Positions 1-58,560 of a stretch of DNA of 64,000 nt are shown here, piece by piece. The DNA comes from Sabellastarte sp. h YS-2021 (lineage: Eukaryota > Annelida > Polychaeta > Sabellida > Sabellidae). The stretch spans positions 93,532,537-93,596,536 of the forward strand of contig OZ024936.1 of NCBI GenBank assembly GCA_964017235.1, written 5' to 3'. Below the pieces are notes generated by a model that saw only the letters and a program-made list of their open reading frames with translations, ran no database searches and was not told the origin of the DNA. Numbering within the stretch: the stretch's first letter is position 1; the number at the start of each line of letters is the position of its first letter. The translations under genes were made by a program, and so were the position numbers.

Positions 1-3000
1 AAACACAAATTTCCTTCTATCTCCTTAACCGTGCGAGATAGAGCGATTTCGTCAAAATTTTCCACCCACAGGGTATCTGAGCATTGTACTCTTGGTAATT
101 TAAAAAAAATTTTCCCCTCCCCAAAAATGGCGGCCATTTTAAATTTTCGAATTTTTGCCAAAAATGGCAAAACACAAATTTGCTTCTATCTCCTTAACCG
201 TGCGAGATAGAGCGATTTCGTCGAAATTTTCGACCCACAGGGTATCTGAAGAGTGTACTCTTTGCAATTTTCAAAAAATTTTCCCCTCCCCAAAAATGGC
301 GGCCATTTTGAATTTTCGAATTTTTGCCAAAAATGGCAAAACACTAATTTGCTTCTATCTCCTTAACCGTGCGAGATAGAGCGATTTCGTGGACATTTTC
401 GACCCACAGGGTATCTAAGGAATGTAATATTTGCAATTTTCAAAAAATTTTCCCGTGCTTCTATCTCCTTAACCGTGCGAGATAGAGTGATTTCGTTGAA
501 ATTTTCGACCCACAGGGTATCTAAGGAATGCAATCTTTGCAATTTTCAAAAAATTTTCCTCTCCCCAAAATTAGCGGCCATTTTGAATTTTCGAATTTTT
601 GCCGAAAATGGCAAAACACAAATTTCCTTCTATCTCCTTAACCGTGCCAGATAGAGCGATTTCGTCAAAATTTTCGACCCACAGGGTATCTGAGCATTGT
701 ACTCTTGGTAATTTTTAAAAAATTTTCCCCTCCCCAAAAATGGCGGCCATTTTGAATTTTCGAATTTTTGCCAAAAATGGCAAAACACAAATTTGCTTCT
801 ATCTCCTTAACCGTGCGAGATAGAGCGATTTCGTCGAAATTTTCGACCCACAGGGTATCTAAGAAATGCAATCTTTGCAATTTTCCCAAAATTTTCCCCT
901 CCCCCAAAAATGGCGGCCATTTTGAATTTTCGAATTTTTGCCAAGAATGGCAAAACACAAATTTCCTTCTATCTCCTTAACCGTGCGAGATAGAGCGATT
1001 TCGTCGAAATTTTCGACCCACAGGGTACCTAAGGAATACAATCTTTGCAATTTTCCCAAAATTTTTCCCTCCCCCAAAAATGGCGGCCATTTTGAATTTT
1101 CGAATTTTTGCCCAAAATGGCAAAACACAAATTTGCTTCTATCTCCTTAACCGTGCGAGATAGAGCGATTTCGTCAAAATTTTCCACCCACAGGGTATCT
1201 GAGCATTGTACTCTTGGTAATTTAAAAAAAATTTTCCCCTCCCCAAAAATGGCGGCCATTTTAAATTTTCGAATTTTTGCCAAAAATGGCAAAACACAAA
1301 TTTGCTTCTATCTCCTTAACCGTGCGAGATAGAGCGATTTCGTGGACATTTTCGACCCACAGGGTATCTAAGGAATGTAATATTTGCAATTTTCAAAAAA
1401 TTTTCCCCTCCCCAAAAATGGCGGCCATTTTGAATTTTCGAATTTTTGCCAAAAATGGCAAAACACTAATTTGCTTCTATCTCCTTAACCGTGCGAGATA
1501 GAGTGATTTCGTCGAAATTTTCGACCCACAGGGTATCTAAGGAATGCAATCTTTGCAATTTTCAAAAAATTTTCCCCTCCCCAAAATTAGCGGCCATTTT
1601 GAATTTTCGAATTTTTGCCAAAAATGGCAAAACACAAATTTCCTTCTATCTCCTTAACCGTGCCAGATAGAGCGATTTCGTCAAAATTTTCGACCCACAG
1701 GGTATCTAAGCATTGTACTCTTGGTAATTTTTAAAAAATTTTCCCCTCCCCAAAAATGGCGGCCATTTTGAATTTTCGAATTTTTGCCAAAAATGGCAAA
1801 ACACAAATTTCCTTCTATCTCCTTAACCGTGCCAGATAGAGCGATTTCGTCAAAATTTTCGACCCACAGGGTATCTAAGGAATGCAATCTTTGCAATTTT
1901 CACAAAATTTTCCCCTCCCCCAAAAATGGCGGCCATTTTGAATTTGCGAATTTTTGCCAAAAATGGCAAAACACAAATTTGCTTCTATCTCCTTAACCGT
2001 GCGAGATAGAGCGATTTCGTCAAAATTTTCGACCCACAGGGTATCTGAGCATTGTACTCTTGGTAATTTAAAAAAAATTTTCCCCTCCCCAAAAATGGCG
2101 GCCATTTTGAATTTTCGAATTTTTGCCAAAAATGGCAAAACACAAATTTGCTTCTATCTCCTTAACCGTGCGAGATAGAGCGATTTCGTCGAAATTTTCG
2201 ACCCACAGGGTATCTAAGGAGTGCAATCTTTGCAATTTTCCCAAAATTTTCCTCTCCCCCAAAAATGGCGGCCATTTTGAATTTTCGAATTTTTGCCAAG
2301 AATGGCAAAACACAAATTTCCTTCTATCTCCTTAACCGTGCGAGATAGAGCGATTTCGTCGAAATTTTCGACCCACCGGGTACCTAAGGAATGCAATCTT
2401 TGCAATTTTCCCAAAATTTTTCCCTCCCCCAAAAATGGCGGCCATTTTGAATTTTCGAATTTTTGCCCAAAATGGCAAAACACAAATTTGCTTCTATCTC
2501 CTTAACCGTGCGAGATAGAGCGATTTCGTCAAAATTTTCGACCCACAGGGTATCTGACGAGTGTACTCTTGGTAATTTAAAAAAAATTTTCCCCTCCCCA
2601 AAAATGGCGGCCATTTTGAATTTTCGAATTTTTGCCAAAAATGGCAAAACACTAATTTGCTTCTATCTCCTTAACCGTGCGAGATAGAGCGATTTCGTGG
2701 ACATTTTCGACCCACAGGGTATCTAAGGAATGTAATATTTGCAATTTTCAAAAAATTTTCCCCTCCCCAAAAATGGCGGCCATTTTGAATTTTCGAATTT
2801 TTGCCAAAAATGGCAAAACACTAATTTGCTTCTATCTCCTTAACCGTGCGAGATAGAGTGATTTCGTCGAAATTTTCGACCCACAGGGTATCTAAGGAAT
2901 GCAATCTTTGCAATTTTCAAAAAATTTTCCCCTCCCCAAAATTAGCGGCCATTTTGAATTTTCGAATTTTTGCCAAAAATGGCAAAACACAAATTTCCTT

Positions 3001-4224
3001 CTATCTCCTTAACCGTGCCAGATAGAGCGATTTCGTCAAAATTTTCGACCCACAGGGTATCTAAGCATTGTACTCTTGGTAATTTTTAAAAAATTTTCCC
3101 CTCCCCAAAAATGGCGGCCATTTTGAATTTTCGAATTTTTGCCAAAAATGGCAAAACACAAATTTCCTTCTATCTCCTTAACCGTGCCAGATAGAGCGAT
3201 TTCGTCAAAATTTTCGACCCACAGGGTATCTAAGGAATGCAATCTTTGCAATTTTCCCAAAATTTTCCCCTCCCCCAAAAATGGCGGCCATTTTGAATTT
3301 TCGAATTTTTGCCAAAAATGGCAAAACACAAATTTGCTTCTATCTCCTTAACCGTGCGAGATAGAGCGATTTCGTCAAAATTTTCGACCCACGGGGTATC
3401 TGAGCATTGTACTCTTGGTAATTTAAAAAAAATTTTCCCCTCCCCAAAAATGGCGGCCATTTTGAATTTTCGAATTTTTGCCAAAAATGGCAAAACACTT
3501 TGCTTCTATCTCCTTAACCGTGCGAGATAGAGCGATTTCGTCAAAATATTCGACGCACAGGGTATCTAAGCAATGCAATCTTTGCAATTTTCAAAAAATT
3601 TTCCCCTCCCCAAAAATGGCGGCCATTTTGAATTTTCGAAGTTTTGCCAAAAATGGCAAAACACAAATTTCCTTCTATCTCCTTAACCATGCGAGATAGA
3701 GCGATTTCGTCAAAATTTTCGACCCACAGGTATTTGAGCATTGTATTCTTGGCAATTTAAAAAAAAATTTCCCCTCCCCTAAAATGGCGGCCATTTTGAA
3801 TTTTCAAATTTTTGCCAAAAATGGCAAAACACAAATTTGCTTCTATCTCCTTAACCATGCGAGATAGAGCGATTTCGTCGAAATTTTTCAACCCACAGGG
3901 TATCTAAGGAATGTAATCTTTGCAATTTTCAAAAAATTTTCCCCTCCCCAAAAATGGCAGCCATTTTGAATTTTCGAATTTTTGCCCAAAATGGAAAAAC
4001 ACAAACTGGCCTTAACCGTGCAAAATAGAGTTATTTTGTTGAAATTTTCGACCCATAGGGTATCTAAGAAATGTACTCTTGGCAATTTTCAAAAAAATTT
4101 CCTTTTCCCAAAAATGGCGGCCATTTTGAATTTTCAAATTTTTGCCAAAAATAGAAAAACAGGAATTTGCTTCTATCTTCTTAACCGTGCAAGATAGAGT
4201 GATTTCGTTAAAATTTTCAACCCA
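1..4224. repeat. Tandem satellite array, ~169-bp monomer with ~1355-bp higher-order period
   Basis: About 25 head-to-tail copies of an AT-rich monomer of 169-170 bp fill the left edge and run off the window. Each monomer has a GGCGGCCATTTT block, a run of C after AAATTTTC, and the phrase CCGTGCGAGATAGAG. Diagnostic variants recur every 1355 bp (eight monomers): the monomers at 768, 938, 1108, 1784 and 1954 are matched by those at 2123, 2293, 2463, 3139 and 3309. One monomer near 440-475 has lost roughly 100 bp. Monomers after about 3700 are clearly more diverged, as expected at an array edge. The short open frames of 60-97 codons on both strands repeat with the monomer and are not genes. Confidence 0.96.
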
Positions 4225-5282
4225 ACCAATGCAAAAAGGCATGAAGCTGAAATAATTTACATCTACACTAACAAATATTTAAGCATCATTGATATATTTT
4301 ACAAATGAAACAGGGTCTTGTAAGACTACTGTACAATTTGGGCAAAAGGTTCATGGGTGGACATTACACATGATAATGTGTGTTCTTCTATGCTATCCTG
4401 TTTCTATTCGCATCTACTATCAACAGGGCGGCCTATTTCTAGTTTTTAAATTTCTTTCACACTTTCAATGATATATTATAAAAAGCTATAAAAGGTTAGC
4501 TACCTGTTGTAACACCACAGTATATAAACCTTCTTAGCTCTTTGAAAAAGCTTACATCACCTTAGTTTTTCGGCTTCCCCGATCTTTCTCCATGGCTGCT
4601 TTATTTCTGGTCAATTGAATATGGATCTCTCTGCTTTTCTTTATCGGGCACTCTTAAGATAGAGCTTAAGCACTGTAAAATTAGAGTTAGTTTTTATTAA
4701 CTTATGTGCAAGGTAGAGCTGAAAGAAGAGACCAAAATTGCGGCCGAATATTCGTTACATATTTTCTGATATTTTCCGGAAATTCGTTTTATAGTTTTAG
4801 TGTGTTCCAAAATTTAGATAAAATCATGGACATTTAGGTTTTCAGTCAACCACTGGAAGAAAAACAAGTAAGTTCACATTTCGCTCTATTATTTAGTAAA
4901 ACATTAGACAAAATGAGTGTTATTTGCAATATTTACATATACCAAGCCTAATTTCCATATTCATACCGAATGTTTGTTTGCTTATGATGAAAGTCGAATC
5001 CGGAAAATACAGACCGGAAAACGAATAATGCGAATATCCCTTTGAGCTCTAGTGCAAGGTGGATATAGAGCTGGTTGTCATATAAGGCAGAGACATTGGA
5101 TGGGTGAGATAGCGCTCTGAGTCTGGCTGTAAAGTGAGATATTATGTGGGGTTTTAATACCAACTATACAATACCCTGCTAATTCACATGGTAATTTAAG
5201 CAAATGAATTAGGTTCTGCTTTGCCTGGTGTGTTGTAAATCTTTTTGTTGTACAGGTAACATATTCTGTAATATTTTGCCAG
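4225..5282 (+). other. Intron sequence upstream of first visible SMARCC exon
   Basis: This is AT-rich sequence between the end of the satellite and the splice acceptor at 5281-5282. I see no exon, RNA gene or clear mobile element. No sequence matching the preceding part of SMARCC (the chromo/BRCT-like N-terminal module) is visible, so those exons must lie left of the window. Confidence 0.6.
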
Positions 5283-35231
<29,949 letters not shown>

Positions 35232-44907: not shown

Positions 44908-45021
44908 CCAGCCAAGGGCCAGCAGTCCTATAAATGACAATTACTTTGTAAACAGTTTACGGGACGGACTGCTGGCTGGGAGCAAGACTCTAACACAAGA
45001 AAAGACAATAAATGTTGTAAA

Positions 45022-45537
45022 TTGTCATGTTGTAACAGATGTACCTTCTGTGCCCAGGCACTCCCAAAAGAGAGAGCTAAGTCCCGGGGCAGCAGATTGT
45101 CAATTGAAAAGAAATCACAAATTAAAATAGGTGAAAAGTGTTTCTTGTGTCACTCAATTGTCTTGTGTCCAACCTGTAAACAATGCCCAAAATGTTGTAC
45201 AAAAACTACCTTAGGGGCCATACTTCAAAACCTTTGGCAAACTTGGCTGGATCTGGGTGCCGGTCCGAAAAGTAGTTCAAACATTGAGAGAAGACTACTC
45301 TCGCCCCTTTCGGACCCGGCCAAATCTGACAAGATATCCCACTGTCGTAAGATGTTATGTACATCCTCACAGGAACAGCTACCTGTTGGAGGCATTACAT
45401 CAGCTGATCGACAAAAATGCAGTGGAGCTAGTATGGAACCAAACATCTCTAGGGTTTTTCAACCGACTATTTTTGGTCCCAGGAGGGTCGGAGGGGAATC
45501 CCCTCTTGGAACTTATCCCTGGTCTTACACCAGCTGA
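45022..45537 (+). CDS. Cys-rich frame overlapping RT start in DIRS copy 2
   Basis: A 171-codon frame contains CFLCHSIVLCPTCKQCPKCC, eight cysteines in CxxC-like spacing that suggest a zinc-binding knuckle. Downstream it overlaps the RT frame (45257-45553, with LGFFNRLFLVPGG) in another register, the same kind of overlap as between recombinase and RT frames in copy 3. Whether it is translated is unknown. Confidence 0.45.
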   Translation: MSCCNRCTFCAQALPKERAKSRGSRLSIEKKSQIKIGEKCFLCHSIVLCPTCKQCPKCCTKTTLGAILQNLWQTWLDLGAGPKSSSNIERRLLSPLSDPAKSDKISHCRKMLCTSSQEQLPVGGITSADRQKCSGASMEPNISRVFQPTIFGPRRVGGESPLGTYPWSYTS

Positions 45538-47031: not shown

Positions 47032-47535
47032 TTATGGGTCAAACTGGGGTCATAAAATAGCCGATTTTGTGTTTTGCCTTATATCTCTTTTATTCTTGCT
47101 TTTAGAGTTTTAGAATGTATTAAGAGGTATTGGGAAACCTTATGTGAAGAGTCTAGATAGCCGGTCAGATATACCCTGGGATCCCCCCTTATGGGTCAAA
47201 CTAGGGTCATAAAATAGCCGATTTTGTGTTTTGGCCTTTTATCTCCTTTATTCTTGCTTTTACAGTTTTAATATGTATTAAGATGTATCGGGAAACCTTA
47301 TGTGAAGAGTCTAGATAGCCGGTCAGGTTTACCCCCTGACCCCCATTATGGATCAAACTGGATTCATCAAATAGCCGATTTTGTGTTTTTGCCTTATATC
47401 TATTTTATTCTTGCTTTCAGAGATTTACAATGTATTAAGAGGTATTGGGAAACCTTACATGATGCATCTAGATAGCTGATCAGATTTACCCCCTGCGCCC
47501 CCCTACGGGTCAAATTGCAGTCATAAAATAGCCGA
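46881..47535 (+). mobile_element. Helitron-like element B, middle segment
   Basis: Four tandem units with TTGCCTTATATCTC and TCTAGATAGC(C/T)GGTCAG lie between DIRS copies 2 and 3. One unit has a 34-C run (46998-47031) where its neighbours have 5-7 C. Confidence 0.85.
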
Positions 47536-47552
47536 TTTTATTGCGCTACAAT

Positions 47553-47696
47553 AGCTTACCATGTGGGACTGAATGCTTTACTGGTTGCCGCGAGGCACAG
47601 ACGACCAACGCTCGAGAAAAACAAGCATGCAGTTGGTTCGGCCTCATAGGTTGTCGTGACGTCATCACTTCCTGTGTATCAGCCTCCTTTTCGTTG
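47553..47696. repeat. Left inverted terminal repeat of DIRS copy 3
   Basis: It starts AGCTTACCATGTGGGACTGA and ends CCTCCTTTTCGTTG. It matches the reverse complement of 53630-53773 at 143 of 144 positions and contains a palindromic CRE-like TGACGTCA at 47657-47664. Confidence 0.95.
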
Positions 47697-47931
47697 GTTT
47701 TCAAAGCTGTTTTCTATTATATCTCTGGATATATTGTTTGTCATTCGTCCATAATTCGGCTTTTCCTTTATTTAGCAGTATAGAATCTTATACCCAATTT
47801 TCAGCACTTCCGGTGCTGTATTTTGTCAGTTTTTTAACGTCTTCTTTTTTCGCGTGTTGTGTGCTCGCCACTACACTAGTACTGCTCGAATCTTCGGTTC
47901 GGAGTATTTTCATATTTTATTGCATTAAAAC

Positions 47932-50022
47932 ATGGCCACCGCCCACCAGTCTTCTAAAGATAAACCCAGATCCAGCAAATGCAATAATTTCTGTCAGCCA
48001 TTCGACAGTCATGGCTATTGCCCTTCCTGCAGAGATGCAGGGAAGGGCGATGATCTGTGTGTTACAAAAGCTGGTACTTGTCAAATCTGTGCGTCTTTCA
48101 CAGACGAACAGTCCACTAAAATTGCTAATAGAAGACGATACAAGAAAAAACATCCCACTTCTCAGGCATCGGACAAAGATCGGGACGAGGTTCTTGGCGA
48201 TTCTTTTGAATCGTTTTCTGGATCGCAAGCCGAACTTGAAGCTGCGGCCGATCATTTGTTTACTTCACCTCCACGTCCCAGACCCTTATCTTTCGATCCT
48301 TTGCCTCTTACTACACCAGGGCGTACTGTTCCTCCCACTCCCAGTACAGCCTTACATCATAAAGTCCATTCTTCTGTAGAAAAGTCTTTGGACCACAAAT
48401 TTGATCAGAAATTCGGTGTTTTTCAGGCCAACATCTATGATGCCCTTAAATCTATGCGTGAAGATTTCCTAAAATCTCAACAAGGGCTGGCTGATAAGAT
48501 CGCCTCTTCGGCTGTTCGCACCGAACCTCAGACCTCTGTCAGTGCTTCTGAACCCATGGATATTGAATATGGCCCTTCTCTTCCTCCTCGCCTTCAGGCC
48601 GAGCAAGGTTCGGACGTTCGTCTTAGCTCTTCCGAACAGACACAGTCTGTTCGCCCCAAGACGTCCTCTCACAAGGTTAGCCATGCTCCAATCTCAGGTT
48701 CGGGATCTGATTCCGATCATGATCGCCCTTCATATTCTAGACCTAAAAAGCACTCTGACAAGTCTAAACATAAGTCAAGGTCCGCATATTTGCCCTCATC
48801 GTCTGGGGAGGATCAGTCCCCTAGACGTAAACACAGGTCTCCCAAGCCCCAGAGAATGGCCTCTGATGATCAGGAACATCCTCAAATTGACCTTGACCCG
48901 CCCTACTATAGGGATGTGGCTCTGGCTGACATCCCAAATCAATATGCGGAGGAGGTAGATACTTTTCGACGTATCCTCAAATTACCTGATCCGAGGGATT
49001 CAGTCCCCAGACCTGCTACTGCTATCATAGGTATCGATGACGAGGTGGCCGTCCAAGAGCTGAGACCTACGGGTCCATCAGCTATGTTGCCCCTCAACTC
49101 TGGTATAAGAGATGCCTTTGACAAATTCAACAATGACCTTATGGCTGCAAACCTGGCAGAGGGCAAATACCCAAAGCCCCCCCCTTCCACTTCTAAGTGG
49201 TACAAGGTTGGACAACCTTGTTTTTCGGAGAAACTCCAAGACTTAAATGCAGACTTTGCCAAGATCTGTATATCTCCTAAACCTTCGGGGGCCCCTTTAG
49301 GCAAGGTCCCACTCTCTGTCCTCAAGGACTTAGAACAACAGGCAAGGTACAATCTAACCACTTTGAATTTCACGACCACTTTTGCCAAGACATCCTCCTC
49401 CTGTAACTCTACCATGAGGAGGTGTCGTTATGGACTAAAAGAAACCTTCAAGAAGGTCAAGTCCCAGGTCAGGAAAGGTGCCGACCCTGAAAAAGCAGTA
49501 AAACGTGGTTATGATGAGGCCTATGACTACTTTGATCCCTGGGAGAAGACCCTCACTATTCAACATAAGGCCATAACCTGCCTGAGCAAATCCCTTGCCC
49601 ATATTTTACAAAGGGAACTTTATACAATGGCAACTTCCGGCTTGCTTAGACGCGAAGCCGAAATGTCCCATCTGCAGCCACAATTAGGGGAAACCAGACG
49701 TCAAGAGCTCAGGAATTCCTCTCTCTGGACTCGTTCCCTGTTCAACTCCCAGTCAGTGAAGGAAGGCGAGGACTTCCTTCTCAAAAAAGGCACCTCAAAA
49801 GATGCTCAGGGTTTCGGACCCTACCAAAATAAGCCCTTTCGTGGTTCCCACCACAATAAGAGAAGAGGCTCCTACAGGAAACGCCCCTTTGGGGGCAATT
49901 CCTCCCAAAGCAGCAACTATTCGTTTCCCTCTTCTAGAGGAAAACCAAACTTCAGAGGCTCCAGGGGTCGCTTTCGACCCCACAACAAAGGAAAAGGGCG
50001 TGGAAACCCCTCTTCCCAATGA
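47932..50022 (+). CDS. DIRS copy 3 gag-like protein (696 aa)
   Basis: It presumably packages the element RNA. Near the N-terminus there is a Cys/His cluster: CNNFCQPFDSHGYCPSC, then CVTKAGTCQIC (residues about 17-60). The middle is Ser/Pro/Lys-rich and disordered. From about residue 330 to 600 the protein looks folded and helical and is shared with copies 2 and 4 (for example REAEMSHLQ near 575). The C-terminus is Arg/Gly-rich (RGSRGRFRPHNKGKGRG), as in nucleic-acid-binding gag tails. AAAACATGG gives a good start context. The UGA stop (50020-50022) is followed by an open frame in the same register. Confidence 0.88.
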   Translation: MATAHQSSKDKPRSSKCNNFCQPFDSHGYCPSCRDAGKGDDLCVTKAGTCQICASFTDEQSTKIANRRRYKKKHPTSQASDKDRDEVLGDSFESFSGSQAELEAAADHLFTSPPRPRPLSFDPLPLTTPGRTVPPTPSTALHHKVHSSVEKSLDHKFDQKFGVFQANIYDALKSMREDFLKSQQGLADKIASSAVRTEPQTSVSASEPMDIEYGPSLPPRLQAEQGSDVRLSSSEQTQSVRPKTSSHKVSHAPISGSGSDSDHDRPSYSRPKKHSDKSKHKSRSAYLPSSSGEDQSPRRKHRSPKPQRMASDDQEHPQIDLDPPYYRDVALADIPNQYAEEVDTFRRILKLPDPRDSVPRPATAIIGIDDEVAVQELRPTGPSAMLPLNSGIRDAFDKFNNDLMAANLAEGKYPKPPPSTSKWYKVGQPCFSEKLQDLNADFAKICISPKPSGAPLGKVPLSVLKDLEQQARYNLTTLNFTTTFAKTSSSCNSTMRRCRYGLKETFKKVKSQVRKGADPEKAVKRGYDEAYDYFDPWEKTLTIQHKAITCLSKSLAHILQRELYTMATSGLLRREAEMSHLQPQLGETRRQELRNSSLWTRSLFNSQSVKEGEDFLLKKGTSKDAQGFGPYQNKPFRGSHHNKRRGSYRKRPFGGNSSQSSNYSFPSSRGKPNFRGSRGRFRPHNKGKGRGNPSSQ

Positions 50023-52078
50023 CTCCTATCAAGCCTCAGTCAATCCACCAGTAGGAGGTCGCCTCCGTTCTTTCAGGAGAGACTGGCACGCAAACAATTG
50101 CTCAGCCAACGTGTTAAATATCATCACCAATGGCTACGTTCTGCCATTCCTCTCAAGGCCAAACTTGATAAGATTTCCTCTGATTGTGTCAGAGTACAAG
50201 GCCCCTCAAAAAGACCAAGCCTTGGCCGATTGCATCCAGTCTCTCCTGTTAAAGAACGCTATCGAAAGGGTGGAAAATGTAAAATCTCTCGGGTTTTACA
50301 GTCGCCTCTTTCTTGTACCCAAGCCTCACCAAAGGTGGAGGCCAGTAATAGACCTAAGCAGGCTCAACACTTTTCTACACGTAGAAAAGTTCAAAATGGA
50401 AACGCCAGAGTCCATCAGGACTTCTCTGATTCCGGGGGAATGGGTAGCGTCAATAGACCTGTCGGACGCTTACCTCCACATCCCCATCCATCCAAACTCA
50501 AGGAAGTATCTAAGATTTTGCCACAGGTCACAGGTGTTCCAGTTCACCTCGCTCCCATTCGGACTAGCCACAGCCCCCCAGGTATTCACCATGGTCGTCA
50601 AAGAAGTGAAGCTCATGGCCCTCAGCAGAGGACTCAGACTTCATCAATACCTGGACGACTGGCTGATCAGGTCTCAGTCCCAGGAGGAAGCATTAGTGGA
50701 CACTCGGACAGTGGTAGATCTCACCCAGTCCTTGGGATGGATCTTAAACCAAGAGAAATCAGAACTGAAACCAACTCAGGTGTTCTCGTTCGTGGGCTAC
50801 GAATACCACCTAGATTCAGCCCTTGTAAAACCCACTCAAGGGAGATGGCTCAAACTTCAGGATTTGATCCTACGACTCAAGTCGAAACATGTTTTGACTG
50901 CAAGATGTTTGATGTCTCTAATTGGGTTGCTAGCCTCAACGGAGAAGATGGTCCCGGAGGGACGCCTTCACATGAGACCGTTTCAGTTTCACCTGAAAGA
51001 GGACTGGAAATTTCCTCAGTCGCTGGACAGCCTCCTTCCCTGGACAGAAGTCATTTCTGCTCATCTGGACTGGTGGCAGAATCCTGCAAAGGTGATGATA
51101 GGCGCCGACCTTCATCCCAAAGACCACAGTATCCAACTCTTTACAGACGCCTCAAACGAAGGCTGGGGCGCTCACTTAGAACAAAGTTCTACAAAAGGGC
51201 TGTGGTCACCTCAGGAAAAAGGACTTCACATAAATGTCCTAGAATTGAAAGCTGTCTTTCTGGCTTTGAGACACTTCAAAGACCAGTGTCAGGACCAAAC
51301 AGTGCTAGTTGCCACGGACAACTCAACTGTGGTAGCTTACATAAACAAACAAGGGGGAACACACTCGGCGGAGATGTGCGCACTCCTGTGGAGACTCATG
51401 ACCTGGTGCCACCACTATCACATAATCTTGAAAGCCAGACACATTCCAGGGTGCCTGAATGTGATGGCCGACCTACTTTCCAGGTCGAACCAGGTTCAGT
51501 CGACCGAATGGTCACTCCATCCACAGGTGTTCAAACAGATCTGCCGAAAGTGGTTCACTCCCCACGTGGACCTTTTTGCCACTCATCTGAACCACAAGCT
51601 CCCTCTGTACGTGTCTCCTATCCCAGACCCCCAGGCCTGGGACATAGATGCTCTAAACATAGACTGGACGGGTCTCACTGCTTATGCTTACCCTCCAACG
51701 GCTCTCCTTTACAGGGTGATCCAAAAAATCAGGCAATGCACCTGCCTGATCATTCTAATAGCCCCAGGCTGGCCAGGGATGCCCTGGTTCTGGGACCTAG
51801 TGCAGCTCTCAACAGAGATCCCTCTACAACTCCCGGTGTCGACAACTCTCCTCAAGCAGTCCCACAACTTTGTGTTCCACAGCTCCCCGCAGCACCTCAA
51901 CCTCCACGCCTGGTCTCTAGGAGTGGACAACTCCAAGAACAAGGCTTCTCTGTGGAAGTGGCAGAGAGAATTGCTGCACCTCAGCGGTCTTCAACAAGGA
52001 ACATCTACAAATCAAAGTGGGCCCTATTTGAAAAATGGTGCAGAGATAATTCGGTGGATTTCTCCTCACCATCTGTGA
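49802..52078 (+). CDS. DIRS copy 3 reverse transcriptase-RNase H
   Basis: It copies the element RNA into DNA. RT motifs in order: RLFLVPKPHQRWRPVIDLSR, SIDLSDAYLHIPI (motif A, about residue 216), LPFGLATAPQVF (motif B), YLDDWL (catalytic pair, about 282). RNase H follows: LFTDASNEGWGAHL (about 446), LELKAVFLAL (Glu), ATDNSTVVAYINKQGG (Asp, about 503), RHIPGCLNVMADLLSR (His/Asp, about 547). All expected catalytic residues are present. The first ~75 codons overlap the gag-like frame, so the true start is uncertain; frameshifting or internal initiation is possible. Confidence 0.95.
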   Translation: MLRVSDPTKISPFVVPTTIREEAPTGNAPLGAIPPKAATIRFPLLEENQTSEAPGVAFDPTTKEKGVETPLPNDSYQASVNPPVGGRLRSFRRDWHANNCSANVLNIITNGYVLPFLSRPNLIRFPLIVSEYKAPQKDQALADCIQSLLLKNAIERVENVKSLGFYSRLFLVPKPHQRWRPVIDLSRLNTFLHVEKFKMETPESIRTSLIPGEWVASIDLSDAYLHIPIHPNSRKYLRFCHRSQVFQFTSLPFGLATAPQVFTMVVKEVKLMALSRGLRLHQYLDDWLIRSQSQEEALVDTRTVVDLTQSLGWILNQEKSELKPTQVFSFVGYEYHLDSALVKPTQGRWLKLQDLILRLKSKHVLTARCLMSLIGLLASTEKMVPEGRLHMRPFQFHLKEDWKFPQSLDSLLPWTEVISAHLDWWQNPAKVMIGADLHPKDHSIQLFTDASNEGWGAHLEQSSTKGLWSPQEKGLHINVLELKAVFLALRHFKDQCQDQTVLVATDNSTVVAYINKQGGTHSAEMCALLWRLMTWCHHYHIILKARHIPGCLNVMADLLSRSNQVQSTEWSLHPQVFKQICRKWFTPHVDLFATHLNHKLPLYVSPIPDPQAWDIDALNIDWTGLTAYAYPPTALLYRVIQKIRQCTCLIILIAPGWPGMPWFWDLVQLSTEIPLQLPVSTTLLKQSHNFVFHSSPQHLNLHAWSLGVDNSKNKASLWKWQRELLHLSGLQQGTSTNQSGPYLKNGAEIIRWISPHHL

Positions 52079-52995
52079 AGCAAATCTCAGATTTCTTTAT
52101 GTATCTGTACCAAGACCTAAACAGGCGCCCCTCTACCATTGATGGTTACAGGACAGCTATTGTTGACACTCTAGGCCCTACGGCCCAGCATATTGCCCAT
52201 AATGAGGACCTTCACAGGTTGCTCTCCAGTTTTCACAGGGATCGCCCCAAGAGTTCCAGAAACCTTCCTCAGTGGAACCTATCTGTTGTCCTCAATGAGC
52301 TCACAAAAGCGCCCTTTGAGCCTATGAAAGACACAGACCTCAAACATCTCACTCTCAAGACTGCTTTCTTGCTAGCTCTGGCCTCCGGCAAACGCCGCAG
52401 TGAAATCCACGCCTGGGTCGCCAACAAAGTATCTAATCTAGGCCAATGGGAAAAGGTAGCCTTGTTCCCTTCATCCGATTTTATAGCCAAAAACCAGCTA
52501 GCAAGAGAAGGTTCTCAAAGTGTGTCTCCGGTGACTATTCCTGCCTTGACTACCATTGTAGATAGACAATTCAAAGAAGACAGGACCTTGTGTCCTGTAC
52601 GGGCTTTGAGGTACTATCTGGACCGAACCAAGGACCTGAGAGGGTCCCGGTCCCTTCTTTTCATCTCCTTCAAGAAAGGACATACCTCAGATATCAGACC
52701 CGCTACTCTCTCTTCATGGTTGAAACAAACCATTCTACTTTGTTATAAGCAAGCAGACCAGCAAGCCTTGGACTTAGTCCAAGTTAAAGCGCATGACATT
52801 AGGGCCTTCGCAGCCTCTAAGGCTTTTTACGGTGGGGTATCGGTGGACCAGATCATGCAAGCGTGTCACTGGAAAGCTCACAACACGTTTACCAATTTTT
52901 ACCTAAAAGACCTTACTTGGTCGGACAACGACAACAACATGTATCTGGGACCAGTAGTAGCGGCTCAACAGGTCCTAGACCCTTCTCCTCAGTGA
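50098..52995 (+). CDS. DIRS copy 3 tyrosine recombinase with long N-terminal overlap frame
   Basis: The C-terminal ~330 residues (from about 634) are a tyrosine recombinase. A SAM-like core-binding part (NIYKSKWALFEKWC, STIDGYRTAI) is followed by the catalytic domain: GKRRSEIHAW (Arg I, about 763), HDIRAFAASKAF (H-x-x-R, about 897), NTFTNFYLKD (nucleophile Tyr, about 934). This enzyme integrates the circular DNA. The N-terminal ~630 residues lie in a different register on top of RT-RNase H and read as Ser/Pro/Arg-rich disordered sequence. The given start codon is TTG, so the real start is unknown. The frame is open back to 50023, directly after the gag stop and in the same register. Confidence 0.9.
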   Translation: MLSQRVKYHHQWLRSAIPLKAKLDKISSDCVRVQGPSKRPSLGRLHPVSPVKERYRKGGKCKISRVLQSPLSCTQASPKVEASNRPKQAQHFSTRRKVQNGNARVHQDFSDSGGMGSVNRPVGRLPPHPHPSKLKEVSKILPQVTGVPVHLAPIRTSHSPPGIHHGRQRSEAHGPQQRTQTSSIPGRLADQVSVPGGSISGHSDSGRSHPVLGMDLKPREIRTETNSGVLVRGLRIPPRFSPCKTHSREMAQTSGFDPTTQVETCFDCKMFDVSNWVASLNGEDGPGGTPSHETVSVSPERGLEISSVAGQPPSLDRSHFCSSGLVAESCKGDDRRRPSSQRPQYPTLYRRLKRRLGRSLRTKFYKRAVVTSGKRTSHKCPRIESCLSGFETLQRPVSGPNSASCHGQLNCGSLHKQTRGNTLGGDVRTPVETHDLVPPLSHNLESQTHSRVPECDGRPTFQVEPGSVDRMVTPSTGVQTDLPKVVHSPRGPFCHSSEPQAPSVRVSYPRPPGLGHRCSKHRLDGSHCLCLPSNGSPLQGDPKNQAMHLPDHSNSPRLARDALVLGPSAALNRDPSTTPGVDNSPQAVPQLCVPQLPAAPQPPRLVSRSGQLQEQGFSVEVAERIAAPQRSSTRNIYKSKWALFEKWCRDNSVDFSSPSVKQISDFFMYLYQDLNRRPSTIDGYRTAIVDTLGPTAQHIAHNEDLHRLLSSFHRDRPKSSRNLPQWNLSVVLNELTKAPFEPMKDTDLKHLTLKTAFLLALASGKRRSEIHAWVANKVSNLGQWEKVALFPSSDFIAKNQLAREGSQSVSPVTIPALTTIVDRQFKEDRTLCPVRALRYYLDRTKDLRGSRSLLFISFKKGHTSDIRPATLSSWLKQTILLCYKQADQQALDLVQVKAHDIRAFAASKAFYGGVSVDQIMQACHWKAHNTFTNFYLKDLTWSDNDNNMYLGPVVAAQQVLDPSPQ

Positions 52996-53468
52996 TGTCT
53001 TCTTCGGAAACTTAAGGGGGGGGGCACGTCCGCTACAGCTAATCCTCAGGAGTCTCCCCAGGTCTAGGTATAAGCTACCTCATCAGGGTGTTACAGGTAA
53101 GGTCACACACATATTAACTTTACGTTAACTTTAACTTCTTGGGACCATAAGGTTGTCTTATAAATAAGGTTGCAAATAGCAATTCTCGAACCTTGACCTC
53201 ATTCTGACGTCATAGCCCTTTGGGGTTCTTCCTATCTGTGTACTCCGGGTACACAATCCTCCTTCCAAACACCCTACAGTGTACGACACTGTGTATTCTC
53301 ATCAGGTTTTTGGCTCTTTACAAGTCCGACCTTCAGGATTGGGACTCTGTAAATGGGACTCAGACTGGAAATTTTTTGGAACTATTTTTTATTACTCTCA
53401 ATTCGAGAAAAACAACATTCAGACCTTCCAGTCTCAGCTGTAATCCCGCCACCGGGCGGTTGAATTCA

Positions 53469-53571
53469 GCATTCAGTCCCACATGGTAAGCTATTGTAGC
53501 GCAATAAAATTGAAAATTTTAATTACTTAAATGTAGCTTTTATAAGCTACAAGCTTACCATGTGGGACTGA
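53469..53571. repeat. Internal complementary region of DIRS copy 3
   Basis: GCATTCAGTCCCACATGG at the left is the inverse of the left terminus, and CTTACCATGTGGGACTGA at the right is the inverse of the right terminus. Between them, GTAGCGCAATAAAATTGAAA joins the two outer ends. This is the template region for joining ends during circle formation in DIRS elements. Confidence 0.95.
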
Positions 53572-53629
53572 GAAGAGTCCCACCCTACCTCCCCGCTGTA
53601 TTACAGCTGAGGGGACATGGGTTTAATCT

Positions 53630-53773
53630 CAACGAAAAGGAGGCTGATACACAGGAAGTGATGACGTCACGACAACCTATGAGGCCGAACCAACTGCATG
53701 CTTGTTTTTCTCGAGCGTTGGTTGTCTGTGCCTCGCGGCAACCAGTAAAGCATTCAGTCCCACATGGTAAGCT
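53630..53773. repeat. Right inverted terminal repeat of DIRS copy 3
   Basis: It is the inverse of the left repeat, with CRE-like TGACGTCA at 53662-53669. The one difference is G/A in CACAGAC(G/A)ACCAAC. Outside it, TGTAGCTTATAAAAGCTACA forms a near-palindrome containing TATAAA. Confidence 0.95.
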
Positions 53774-53816
53774 TGTAGCTTATAAAAGCTACATTTAAGT
53801 AATTAAAATTTTCAAA

Positions 53817-55762: not shown

Positions 55763-58560
55763 ATTGTGCTGCAATAGCTTACCATATGGAACTGAATGCT
55801 TACTTGGATGGCTGCAGAGATCCGGTCAATGTCCAAGAAAAATAGATGTATAATAGTGGCCCAATGCCTTCTGTACTGAAGGTGAACCCCATATTGAAGT
55901 ACCGTGAGATCCTCTTCTCATAGGCCTCGATATGTACAGATGTGTTTTATTGCAAGGAAAGAAGTTTAATATTTTATATGAATATACTTGTCATTGGACA
56001 CTCAAACTACATCAGCTTCTTCATTTTATGGTATAGAATGTTAATTTTGTGACAATTCTCAGAACAGTTAATTATATTCACATTTTAAATTGTGAAGTAA
56101 AGAGTGGACGACATAGACGTGTAGCTTATATACAGGACCTAAGCCTGTCGAAATAATATAAAATATTTTAAGGGTTTAACCTGTCTGCTACATTTTTGAC
56201 CATTTACAGGGTTAAATTATGAAATAAACACAAAACCAAGTCCTTCGAATCCTCTGGAAACCTGTTTGGTGATGTCCTTGTCTATAGAGCAAGTGCTGGG
56301 AGACCTTTGCGTCGGCGTGACAAACAATAAAAGTCATCACTTTTTGTGAATTTTATGAAAGCTTAAATATAAATTTGATATATACGTGAAAAGAGGTAAT
56401 ATTTAGAATATTTTACATATTAGGCCCTTGTAAAAAAGACAAAAAACTTGTAATGCACAATTGCAAGGCAGTTGACAAACATGCCATCTCATTCTCACAG
56501 TATTTGGCCTTGTCTCCCCAATGTTTGTTCGCAACAAATAATGGTCTCTTTTAACTTATCTGTTGAAGCAAATAATCTCTGCAGTTGTACAGAGGTTTAT
56601 CCTCTTCCCAACTCACTGGTGGATCAGATCACTAAGTCGGATCCTTAACCTGACAAAGCCAGCAGTCTGACTTGAATCCAAAGCTCGGATCTTAAATGCA
56701 CATTAATTGGCCGAGTGCTTCTTTTTCAAGAGATTCGCATTTAGTGGATCACACTGAATTGGGTACGAATACCATCAAGTCTTGGGTACAAACCTGAAAA
56801 CTCAAGATCCAGAGTGACACTGTGGAAATTGAATTATAGGGCCTCCGCTTCCACCTAACTTTAAAAAGTGAGGGCAAGTCTTGGTGTCTTAGATTCTGAC
56901 TCAGATCATAACTGTCACTCAAAAAATGTGCAAAATAAAAGGAGACACAAGTTTCTTAAATATGTGTCTTCCACTCACCTTCAAAGGGTGAGTCTTCATA
57001 GGCCCATAAGCCTATGACCTCAAACAAAAGAACTGAGTATAAATAAAGTGGCTCAAAAATGGGCACTCAGACCTAAAGGTCCTTCAGTCATGCTTCCAGT
57101 TAGTCCTACCTTAAAAGAGGCCCTAGACAAATATATTAAACCACATTCCCTTCTGCAAAGTGGTACATATTGGAGATAATAGGCAACAGTTCAACACAAA
57201 TCTGGCTAGTATCTGTGTCTCTCCCTAACCCCCTGGAACGCCTAAGGTCCCTATGCATGTAGTCAAAGGGTTTGAGCACCAGGCAAGGCACAATCTCTGT
57301 ACCCTTAACCTTTCAGCTGCCTTCACCCAGGTCATTTCTGACTGCAACCTGGTTATGGAAACTAAAGACAGTATCAAGACTACTGCCAACGGGTAGAAGC
57401 TCAGAGTCAAAAGGGTGCCAATAAAAAAGGCAGCCAGAAATGGTTATGAAAAGACCTGTGTTTATCTAGATGTCCTGAATAAGAGGAGCCTTATTCAACA
57501 GAGCCTTAGCCTGTCAAGTAAGGCCTTAGCCCACATTCTCCACAGAAAGATGCATGCTATGGGTTTTTCAGCGTTCATTCGGAATGAGGCTGAAATGACC
57601 CATCTCCAATCTCATCTAGGAGATACCAGAACTTTAAGAGCCTGGGAGTTCTCCATTCTGTCCCTCTCCTTCATTCTTCTGTTCACAAAAAAATGGTTAA
57701 GGAGTGCAGAGTTCCTCCTCTAAAGGCACCCCTAAAACCAGCTATTTTGTGGTCCCCACCACACATATAGAGGCTCCTATAAGAAACACCCTAGGGGTGT
57801 CTATTCACTCCAAGCAGTAATCTTATTTTTTCAGGCAGGGGGAAATCGAGTAACAGGTTGTTTCTGACCTCAGCCAAGGGTAAGAGGGCATTGGATACCT
57901 CTTCTCCCAATGACTCCTTAGCCTTACTCAGTCCAATAGTAGGAGGTTGCCTCTGCTCTTTCAGAAAAGACTGGAAAAAATGCTCAAACCAAATTAACTA
58001 GAGTTCCCCAAATTCACTCAGGATACAAGGCCAATCAAAAGATCTATCTCTGGCCTCTTGTATCCAATCTCTTCAGTCAAAGAACATTTTAGAAAGGGTG
58101 GAAATTGTAAAATCCCTCGGGTTTTGCAGTCGCCTGTTTCTAGTCCCCAAGCCTCACCAAGGTGGAGAACAGTGATAAGACCTTGCAGGCTCAACACCTT
58201 TCTATTGGTAGAAAGGTTCAAATGGAAACCCCAGAGTCCGTCAAGGCCTCTCTGATTCCAGGGGAATGGGTGTTGTCCATAGACGCCTACCTTCACATCC
58301 CCATCCACCCAACCTAGGAAGAAACGGTTTTTCCACGGTTTTTCTGAAGTGTTCTAGTTGACCTGCCTCCCCTTTGAACTAGCCGTGGCCCCACAAATCT
58401 TTACAATGATTGAACAATCTTGTACAATGAATGAATCCTTTACAAGGAAGTGAAGCTGATGGCCTGCACAAGGGGAGTCAGACTTCAATACCTGGAGATC
58501 AAAACAAAACGTCAGCTGACTCAGCACGTTCAAAAATCTGTCTGCAAGTTGATGTAAAAT
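55763..58560 (+). mobile_element. DIRS-like copy 4, decayed and 3'-truncated
   Basis: The left end GCTGCAATAGCTTACCATAT with GAACTGAATGCTTAC corresponds to the copy 3 left terminus, so it belongs to the same subfamily. Gag-like matches begin at about 57060 (LRP-GPSVMLP). RT similarity covers about 57900-58500 up to the region of motif C. RNase H, recombinase and right terminus are missing. Confidence 0.82.
57415..58500 (+). pseudogene. DIRS copy 4 gag C-terminus and RT N-terminus remnants
   Basis: The piece 57415-57723 has SSKALAHILHRKMHAMGFSA and RNEAEMTHLQSHLGDTR, matching LAHILQRELYTM and REAEMSHLQPQLGETR of copy 3. Around 58058-58255 the frame first follows the recombinase-register overlap of copy 3 (KGGNCKIPRVLQSPVSS) and then RT (RLNTFLLVERFK). 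Several stops and shifts are present. Confidence 0.8.

Follow-up and report, generated by a model that had tools for sequence, protein, structure and literature searches.

Introduction

Overlap between ORFs is frequent and extensive in DIRS elements in general (PMC6681497). Among 28 DIRS1-like elements, half possess a long overlap between the tyrosine recombinase (YR) ORF and pol, with the catalytic YR located in the non-overlapping 3' end; XtDIRS2, XtDIRS3, AcDIRS2 and TnDIRS1a are examples, and vertebrates are among the hosts (Piednoel et al. 2011, PMC3266345). In Xenopus DIRS-like families, the three ORFs overlap to several degrees, chiefly ORF2 with ORF3 (PMC9210276). A first-pass annotation of the DNA studied here named DIRS-1 of Dictyostelium as the precedent for overlapping frames. 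An overlap is indeed reported for that element, but long YR/pol overlaps have been published well beyond it, vertebrates included (PMC3266345). In the portions of this literature consulted, extensive YR/pol overlap in DIRS is described without an explanation.

A different arrangement joins Gag to a downstream enzyme through a stop codon. Gammaretroviruses use readthrough of the Gag stop, a UAG followed by a pseudoknot, and CARYYA- or UGA-C-dependent readthrough occurs in viruses and vertebrate genes (PMC3542737, PMC4132726). CARYYA, a type I readthrough signal, mostly accompanies UAG and acts on UGA too (PMC3542737); placed after UGA in an OPRL1 reporter, it gave about 15% readthrough in HEK-293T cells (PMC4132726).

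Results

The window, that is, the whole 64,000-nucleotide stretch of Sabellastarte DNA analysed, contains a complete DIRS1-like element of a family termed A at 47535..53815 on the forward strand, its outer limits being defined by the sequences that pair with internal complementary regions. Its ends (47535-47577 on the left and 53754-53815 on the right) match 53468-53510 and 53510-53571 exactly in reverse complement. These internal complementary regions of 43 and 62 nt (53468..53571, reverse strand) define a circular junction at 53510. The left inverted terminal repeat (ITR) of 144 nt (47553..47696, forward strand) is 99% complementary to the right one (53630..53773, reverse strand), so that the element possesses both the ITRs and the internal complementary regions with a circular junction that characterize DIRS1-like elements. 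Beside the left ITR, at 47698, other copies carry extra bases absent from the window copy. These total 980; the alignments of 35 of the 39 copies extend this far, giving about 28 each.

Three forward-strand ORFs follow. The gag ORF (47932..50022) starts with an ATG at 47932 and runs for 696 codons to a UGA stop. The RT ORF (49760..52078) lies in the +1 frame relative to gag, comprises 772 codons from stop to stop, and contains the RT and RNase H expected of a DIRS1-like element (Pfam RVT_1, PF00078, E=4.7e-18; RT_RNaseH, PF17917, E=4.3e-07). No Pfam MT match was found after RNase H (PCIF1_WW, E=0.039, fell below the cut-off); a C-terminal block is present there, which we take to be MT-like. 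The YR register is open from stop to stop over 50023..52995 (990 codons) and overlaps the RT ORF at 50023-52078, a stretch of 684 RT codons. Clear YR-register constraint begins at about 51900, where the tyrosine recombinase proper (51900..52995) is placed. Its Pfam match to Phage_integrase (PF00589) is weak (E=0.046, below the gathering score); HxxR and a downstream H and Y were found by eye and are presumed to be the tyrosine recombinase motif. The preceding part of the register (50023..51900, forward strand) is a stop-free linker without detectable overall amino-acid constraint, the reading of which is rich in Ser, Pro and Arg (12.9%, 10.9% and 9.4%). The window element is an otherwise typical DIRS1-like retrotransposon.

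The surroundings and the genome were also surveyed. A tandem satellite of about 169 bp occupies positions 1-4300 of the window, with 22-24 overlapping 300-nt matches per family, and an ORF at 17518-17862 reads like what we take to be a SMARCC-type (BAF155/170) exon, suggesting an animal host gene nearby. A LINE-type RT open frame of 369 codons, recognized by eye on the reverse strand at 18650-19756, served as a codon control. The DIRS-like RT active-site motif YLDDW gave 20,559 matches in the 1.79 Gb genome as opposed to 15 in the reversed control, indicating that the genome is heavily loaded with such RTs.

Searching the genome with the overlap recovered at least 41 matches. Forty were full-length (the window element and 39 others, all at about 100% identity after rounding) and one was partial. 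Each of the 39 near-identical copies has between 11 and 56 aligned bases that differ from the window element; as the copies were picked by similarity in the overlap, substitution densities among them are biased. In the single-coded part of gag, changes common to at least two copies comprised 18 synonymous, 4 nonsynonymous and 1 stop. Of the 39 copies, 30 carry a coding-sequence indel, and in 23 this lies within a single C-run of gag (49176-49185). This run is an indel hot spot at which 23 of the 39 copies differ from the window, many by one base; one-base indels there would shift the gag frame, and sequencing error, decay and slippage are all possible sources.

More distant copies were used for divergence tests. 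L048 and L049 represent a second family (B), with RT identities to the window element of 55% for L048 and 51-63% for the pieces of L049; third-base identity between A and B is 0.35-0.51 at identical residues, which is near saturation. L048 carries a single RT stop within the overlap stretch, and in L049 indels move the two frames in step. Two further family B copies are the decayed copy 2 in the window and L052, which sits directly upstream of L049. L051, likewise decayed, represents a subfamily 87% identical in RT and has one RT stop within its overlap and two YR-register stops; L050, also decayed and more distant, was left out of the tests. Copy 4 (57018..58497, forward strand) is a decayed relative of family A in which the junction at the gag UGA, here located at 57911, is retained. 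Scans of viral_contigs and genome_contigs confirmed no relatives beyond this genome.

The first-pass annotation had observed that the YR register stays open through the RT frame, and this is correct: there are 0 stops in the 684 RT codons of the overlap (50023-52078), compared with 59 in the third frame and 36, 36 and 33 in the antisense frames. Its claim that such openness exceeds chance also stands, although not the random-codon figure attached to it, because a proper null keeps the RT protein. When RT codons were permuted among synonyms with the protein kept, 20,000 shuffles gave a mean of 25.6 YR-register stops (sd 3.9) and a minimum of 10, so the synonymous shuffling that the annotation had proposed as a check produced no equally open frame. 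A null with the codon usage of the single-coded gag and YR parts gave a mean of 39.4 and a minimum of 21 (n=20,000). Five segments of the overlap were each depleted of stops (P from under 0.001 to 0.035). The first 139 codons of the register, which precede its first Met, contain 0 stops against 6.8 expected (P=0.0003).

The same avoidance was visible at single bases. Between 50024 and 51900 of the family A element, T occupies the RT third base at 0 of the 106 sites where a YR stop would result and at 106 of 393 sites elsewhere. Corresponding values for L048 are 0/86 and 89/310. At the YR-stop contexts of L049, T was present at 0/24, 0/29 and 1/46 in the three pieces tested, and L051 has it at 3/117, one apparently being the gag stop itself. 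Five controls behaved differently. T at stop-making contexts (elsewhere in brackets) amounted to 49/143 (160/343) in gag of A, 14/61 (69/189) in YR of A, 14/43 (46/143) in YR of copy 2, 16/66 (57/153) in gag of copy 2 and 25/79 (84/238) in the unrelated LINE. T was not excluded in any of them, and a mild deficit was seen in three (P = 0.012, 0.061 and 0.063).

Looking for stops in other copies was the other check proposed, and the relatives remained open. The YR register of L048 contains 0 stops against 20.3 expected, and the four pieces of L049 contain 0 against about 20 expected in all, while single-coded controls at similar divergence gave 14 stops against 14.6 expected and 11 against 12.7. 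Between A and L051, 147 RT-synonymous changes created 2 YR stops where 9.97 were expected (P=0.0002). When changes in 50023-51900 were taken singly, 4 of 238 would give a YR stop against 8.0 expected (P=0.09), a weaker result than that of the RT-synonymous test. Among the near-identical copies, 4 of 39 have overlap stops in the YR register, 4 of 39 in RT, and 32 in neither. Copy 4 had been cited for matching sequence in the YR register. The match exists (41% to A over residues 1-117, in the copy at 57.0-58.5 kb), but with a YR-register stop 27 codons past the gag stop and a broken RT this decayed fragment adds little on openness.

Genome-wide, TAYCTTGAYGAYTGGYTN was found 55 times (25+30) and TAYYTNGAYGAYTGGYTN 20,559 times. 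The rarity of CTT in YLDDW (55 of 20,559) fits stop avoidance and serves as supporting evidence only. GAT before GA, which makes a YR stop, was counted by eye in about 8 of about 100 motif places listed; these cases are perhaps CpG decay. Cumulatively, these results leave hardly any doubt that stops are selected against in the YR register.

We then compared amino-acid constraint in the two frames. The first-pass annotation had read some 685 codons as dual coding, which was for the most part not borne out. YR-register amino acids of A and L048 are no more similar than expected over 505 codons (z = 0.60). Between A and L051, changes at 50023-51900 include 48 YR-synonymous ones against 67.5 expected and 150 RT-synonymous ones against 65 expected, and the mean BLOSUM effect of the 147 RT-synonymous changes in the YR register is as by chance (P=0.21). 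Twelve overlap changes are common to at least two of the 40 family A copies; 10 are RT-synonymous and 2 are not. Each of the 12 alters the YR register, without creating a stop in it. From 50023 to about 51900, YR-register amino acids are thus under little or no constraint beyond what RT forces. The situation is reversed at 51900-52078, where 7 of 11 changes between A and L051 are YR-synonymous (2.8 expected, P=0.007) and 2 of 11 are RT-synonymous (2.6 expected). The YR register is also clearly constrained between A and L049 at 51899-52049 (z=5.18). Constraint passes from RT to YR near 51900; the frames take turns, and a linker followed by a hand-over replaces the dual-coding picture. An overlapping frame of 600 codons can be kept open by selection and still not be a dual-coding protein.

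A feature absent from the first-pass annotation is that gag and YR share a phase. Positions 47932-52995 form one frame, with codon starts at coordinates of 1 modulo 3, and the UGA at 50020..50022, in the context CCCAA UGA CUC CU, is the sole stop between gag and YR. This UGA is kept in copy 4, in L051 and in 39 of 39 near-identical copies, the last being weak evidence on account of their near-identity; CAA UGA CUC CU surrounds the stop in copy 4 and L051. A single RT-synonymous substitution, AAT to AAC, would abolish this UGA. Family B has an equivalent. In copy 2 a UGA at 44935..44937 (forward strand), read as AAA UGA CAA UUA, lies between gag and a Cys-rich reading (44938..45205, forward strand) in the same frame, and in L052 gag ends with AAA UGA CAA UCA and the same frame runs on into the Cys-rich segment. 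A single in-phase stop separates gag from the next ORF in family A and in L052; the decayed copy 2 has an additional in-frame TGA ten codons upstream of its UGA, at a position occupied by CGA in L052. Both family B contexts read, CAAUUA and CAAUCA, fit CARYYA (2/2 copies), whereas UGA CUC of family A matches neither CARYYA nor the type II contexts CUA and CGG.

The Cys-rich segment has the pattern CxxCx5CxxCxxCxxCC, common to L048 and L049, and is possibly zinc-binding; Pfam gave no match up to E = 1 for the copy 2 Cys-rich ORF, the L048 YR reading or the gag N-terminus. In family B the segment after the UGA is constrained in the YR register (BLOSUM P=0.005; synonymous count P=0.08) and not in RT (P=0.36), in an alignment with small indels, while further downstream RT becomes constrained (P=0.006). 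No Met occurs from the UGA to the Cys-rich segment in copy 2 or in L052/L049.

Two other candidate features were considered. Downstream RNA folds are only mildly stable in A (z=-2.06 and -2.04) and not stable in B (-0.23 for copy 2 and +1.01 for L052, the folded stretch of which begins about 10 nt past its UGA), so a downstream RNA structure was not supported as a signal common to both families. A YR start at the register's first AUG (residue 140 in A) is disfavoured: stop avoidance extends upstream of that position, and the Met is Val in L051 and L049, although it is kept in L048. Upstream of the UGA, in the gag/RT overlap, openness of the RT frame is not significant, with 0.55 and 0.21 stops expected.

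Discussion

Stop avoidance that reaches back to the UGA, ahead of the first Met, points to ribosomes entering at or before this codon, and we consider it quite probable that YR is reached in this manner. As for the nature of the entry, UGA readthrough appears the better candidate when set against splicing and non-AUG initiation, a preference held with some reserve. More likely than not, YR is made as a Gag-linker-YR fusion via readthrough of the gag UGA, which we favour as the best explanation of the features described. Most ribosomes would terminate at the UGA to give Gag. Some would pass it in frame, cross the stop-free stretch of about 630 codons as a long disordered linker, and end in the recombinase, and the resulting fusion would carry the recombinase into Gag particles. 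In other retroelements, integrase is brought into particles by Gag-Pol. RT would arise by a different mechanism, either a +1 shift or initiation at a start of its own; slippage by +1 at the UGA would bring ribosomes directly into RT.

The family B segment counts for readthrough, as it is constrained in-frame without a prior Met. Counting against readthrough are the YR-register stops in decayed copies (two in L051 and at least one in copy 4), the non-CARYYA context of family A, the weak folds and the second TGA of copy 2. The shared gag/YR phase was seen in two families of one genome with few independent junction copies, and common descent alone could explain it.

Splicing of an upstream start to an acceptor near the end of gag, with the YR ORF as one long open exon, would likewise need an open frame from about 50023 onward, and it accounts for the lack of a consistently conserved first AUG. 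It leaves unaccounted for the phase shared by gag and YR across a UGA in both families, as well as the CARYYA that follows the family B UGA, and we hold it to be unlikely. Translation of YR alone, by reinitiation or non-AUG initiation just past the gag stop, agrees with an open frame and a stop avoidance that both begin directly after the UGA; it is a doubtful reading given that family A offers no AUG for 139 codons and two family B copies offer none between the UGA and the Cys-rich segment.

True dual coding, with the Ser/Pro/Arg-rich reading as a conserved functional domain, draws on signals that are weak or local. YR constraint rises between A and L049 at 51299-51449 (z=2.39) and 51824-51974 (z=2.05), and between L048 and L049 in one of four pieces (z=3.38). 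Just after the UGA, A and copy 4 give a BLOSUM P of 0.02, and 11 of the 147 RT-synonymous changes between A and L051 are also YR-synonymous (7.0 expected, P=0.07). There may thus be short constrained patches within the linker. As the main reading of 50023-51900, however, dual coding was rejected and is very improbable, because constraint was not found in both frames: the A-L048 comparison and the BLOSUM effects between A and L051 are both at chance level, and the changes shared among family A copies, mostly silent in RT, all alter the YR register. An open frame arising by accident from RT composition can be dismissed: T is likewise somewhat rare in the pooled controls when AA or AG follows (0.25 and 0.19, compared with 0.38-0.41 for other starts), but before GA it reaches 0.43 there and 0/40 and 0/30 in the A and L048 overlaps, no shuffle ever reached 0 stops, and L048 keeps its frame open near third-position saturation.

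Readthrough of the gag UGA could also be one branch of a three-way switch in DIRS, in which stopping would yield Gag, slippage by +1 at the UGA or close to it would yield Gag-RT, and readthrough would yield Gag-linker-YR, so that both enzymes would be packaged as Gag fusions. We offer this extension tentatively, as a possibility that we would not presently expect to hold. If it were true, the long YR/pol overlap would be a corridor passively held open, with stop absence selected and sequence not. Within the element itself, what is selected is the absence of stops and, on the whole, not the amino acids, and the gag UGA is indicated as one testable candidate site through which the recombinase would be expressed.

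The long YR/pol overlap is already published, and any novelty would lie in the readthrough reading. We recognized no report of a gag-UGA-YR arrangement in the consulted portions of the openly available DIRS literature on readthrough, shared frames, frameshifting and dual coding. The window element resembles the DIRS1-like elements of PMC3266345 in its size class (about 6.2 kb), its gag, RT/RH and YR genes, its ITRs and internal complementary regions, its catalytic YR placed in the non-overlapping 3' end and its long overlap. It differs in what is described: the consulted parts of that study state the overlaps and do not describe second-frame selection, a shared gag/YR frame or YR translation. 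For the Xenopus DIRS-like families, ORF overlap is likewise described without frame or translation analysis in the text consulted (PMC9210276). In DIRS-1 of Dictyostelium the RT/RH/MT ORF overlaps the YR ORF, as here, whereas the phase between gag and YR is not stated in the sections consulted (PMC5633606).

With the Gag-stop readthrough systems, the locus shares a lone in-phase stop that separates Gag from an essential enzyme, and the family B context fits CARYYA. It differs in that the enzyme is a recombinase lying past a linker nested in another gene, and in that readthrough is here a proposal drawn from sequence. If readthrough does operate, the DIRS recombinase would use a Gag-fusion strategy, parallel to that of integrase in LTR retroelements.
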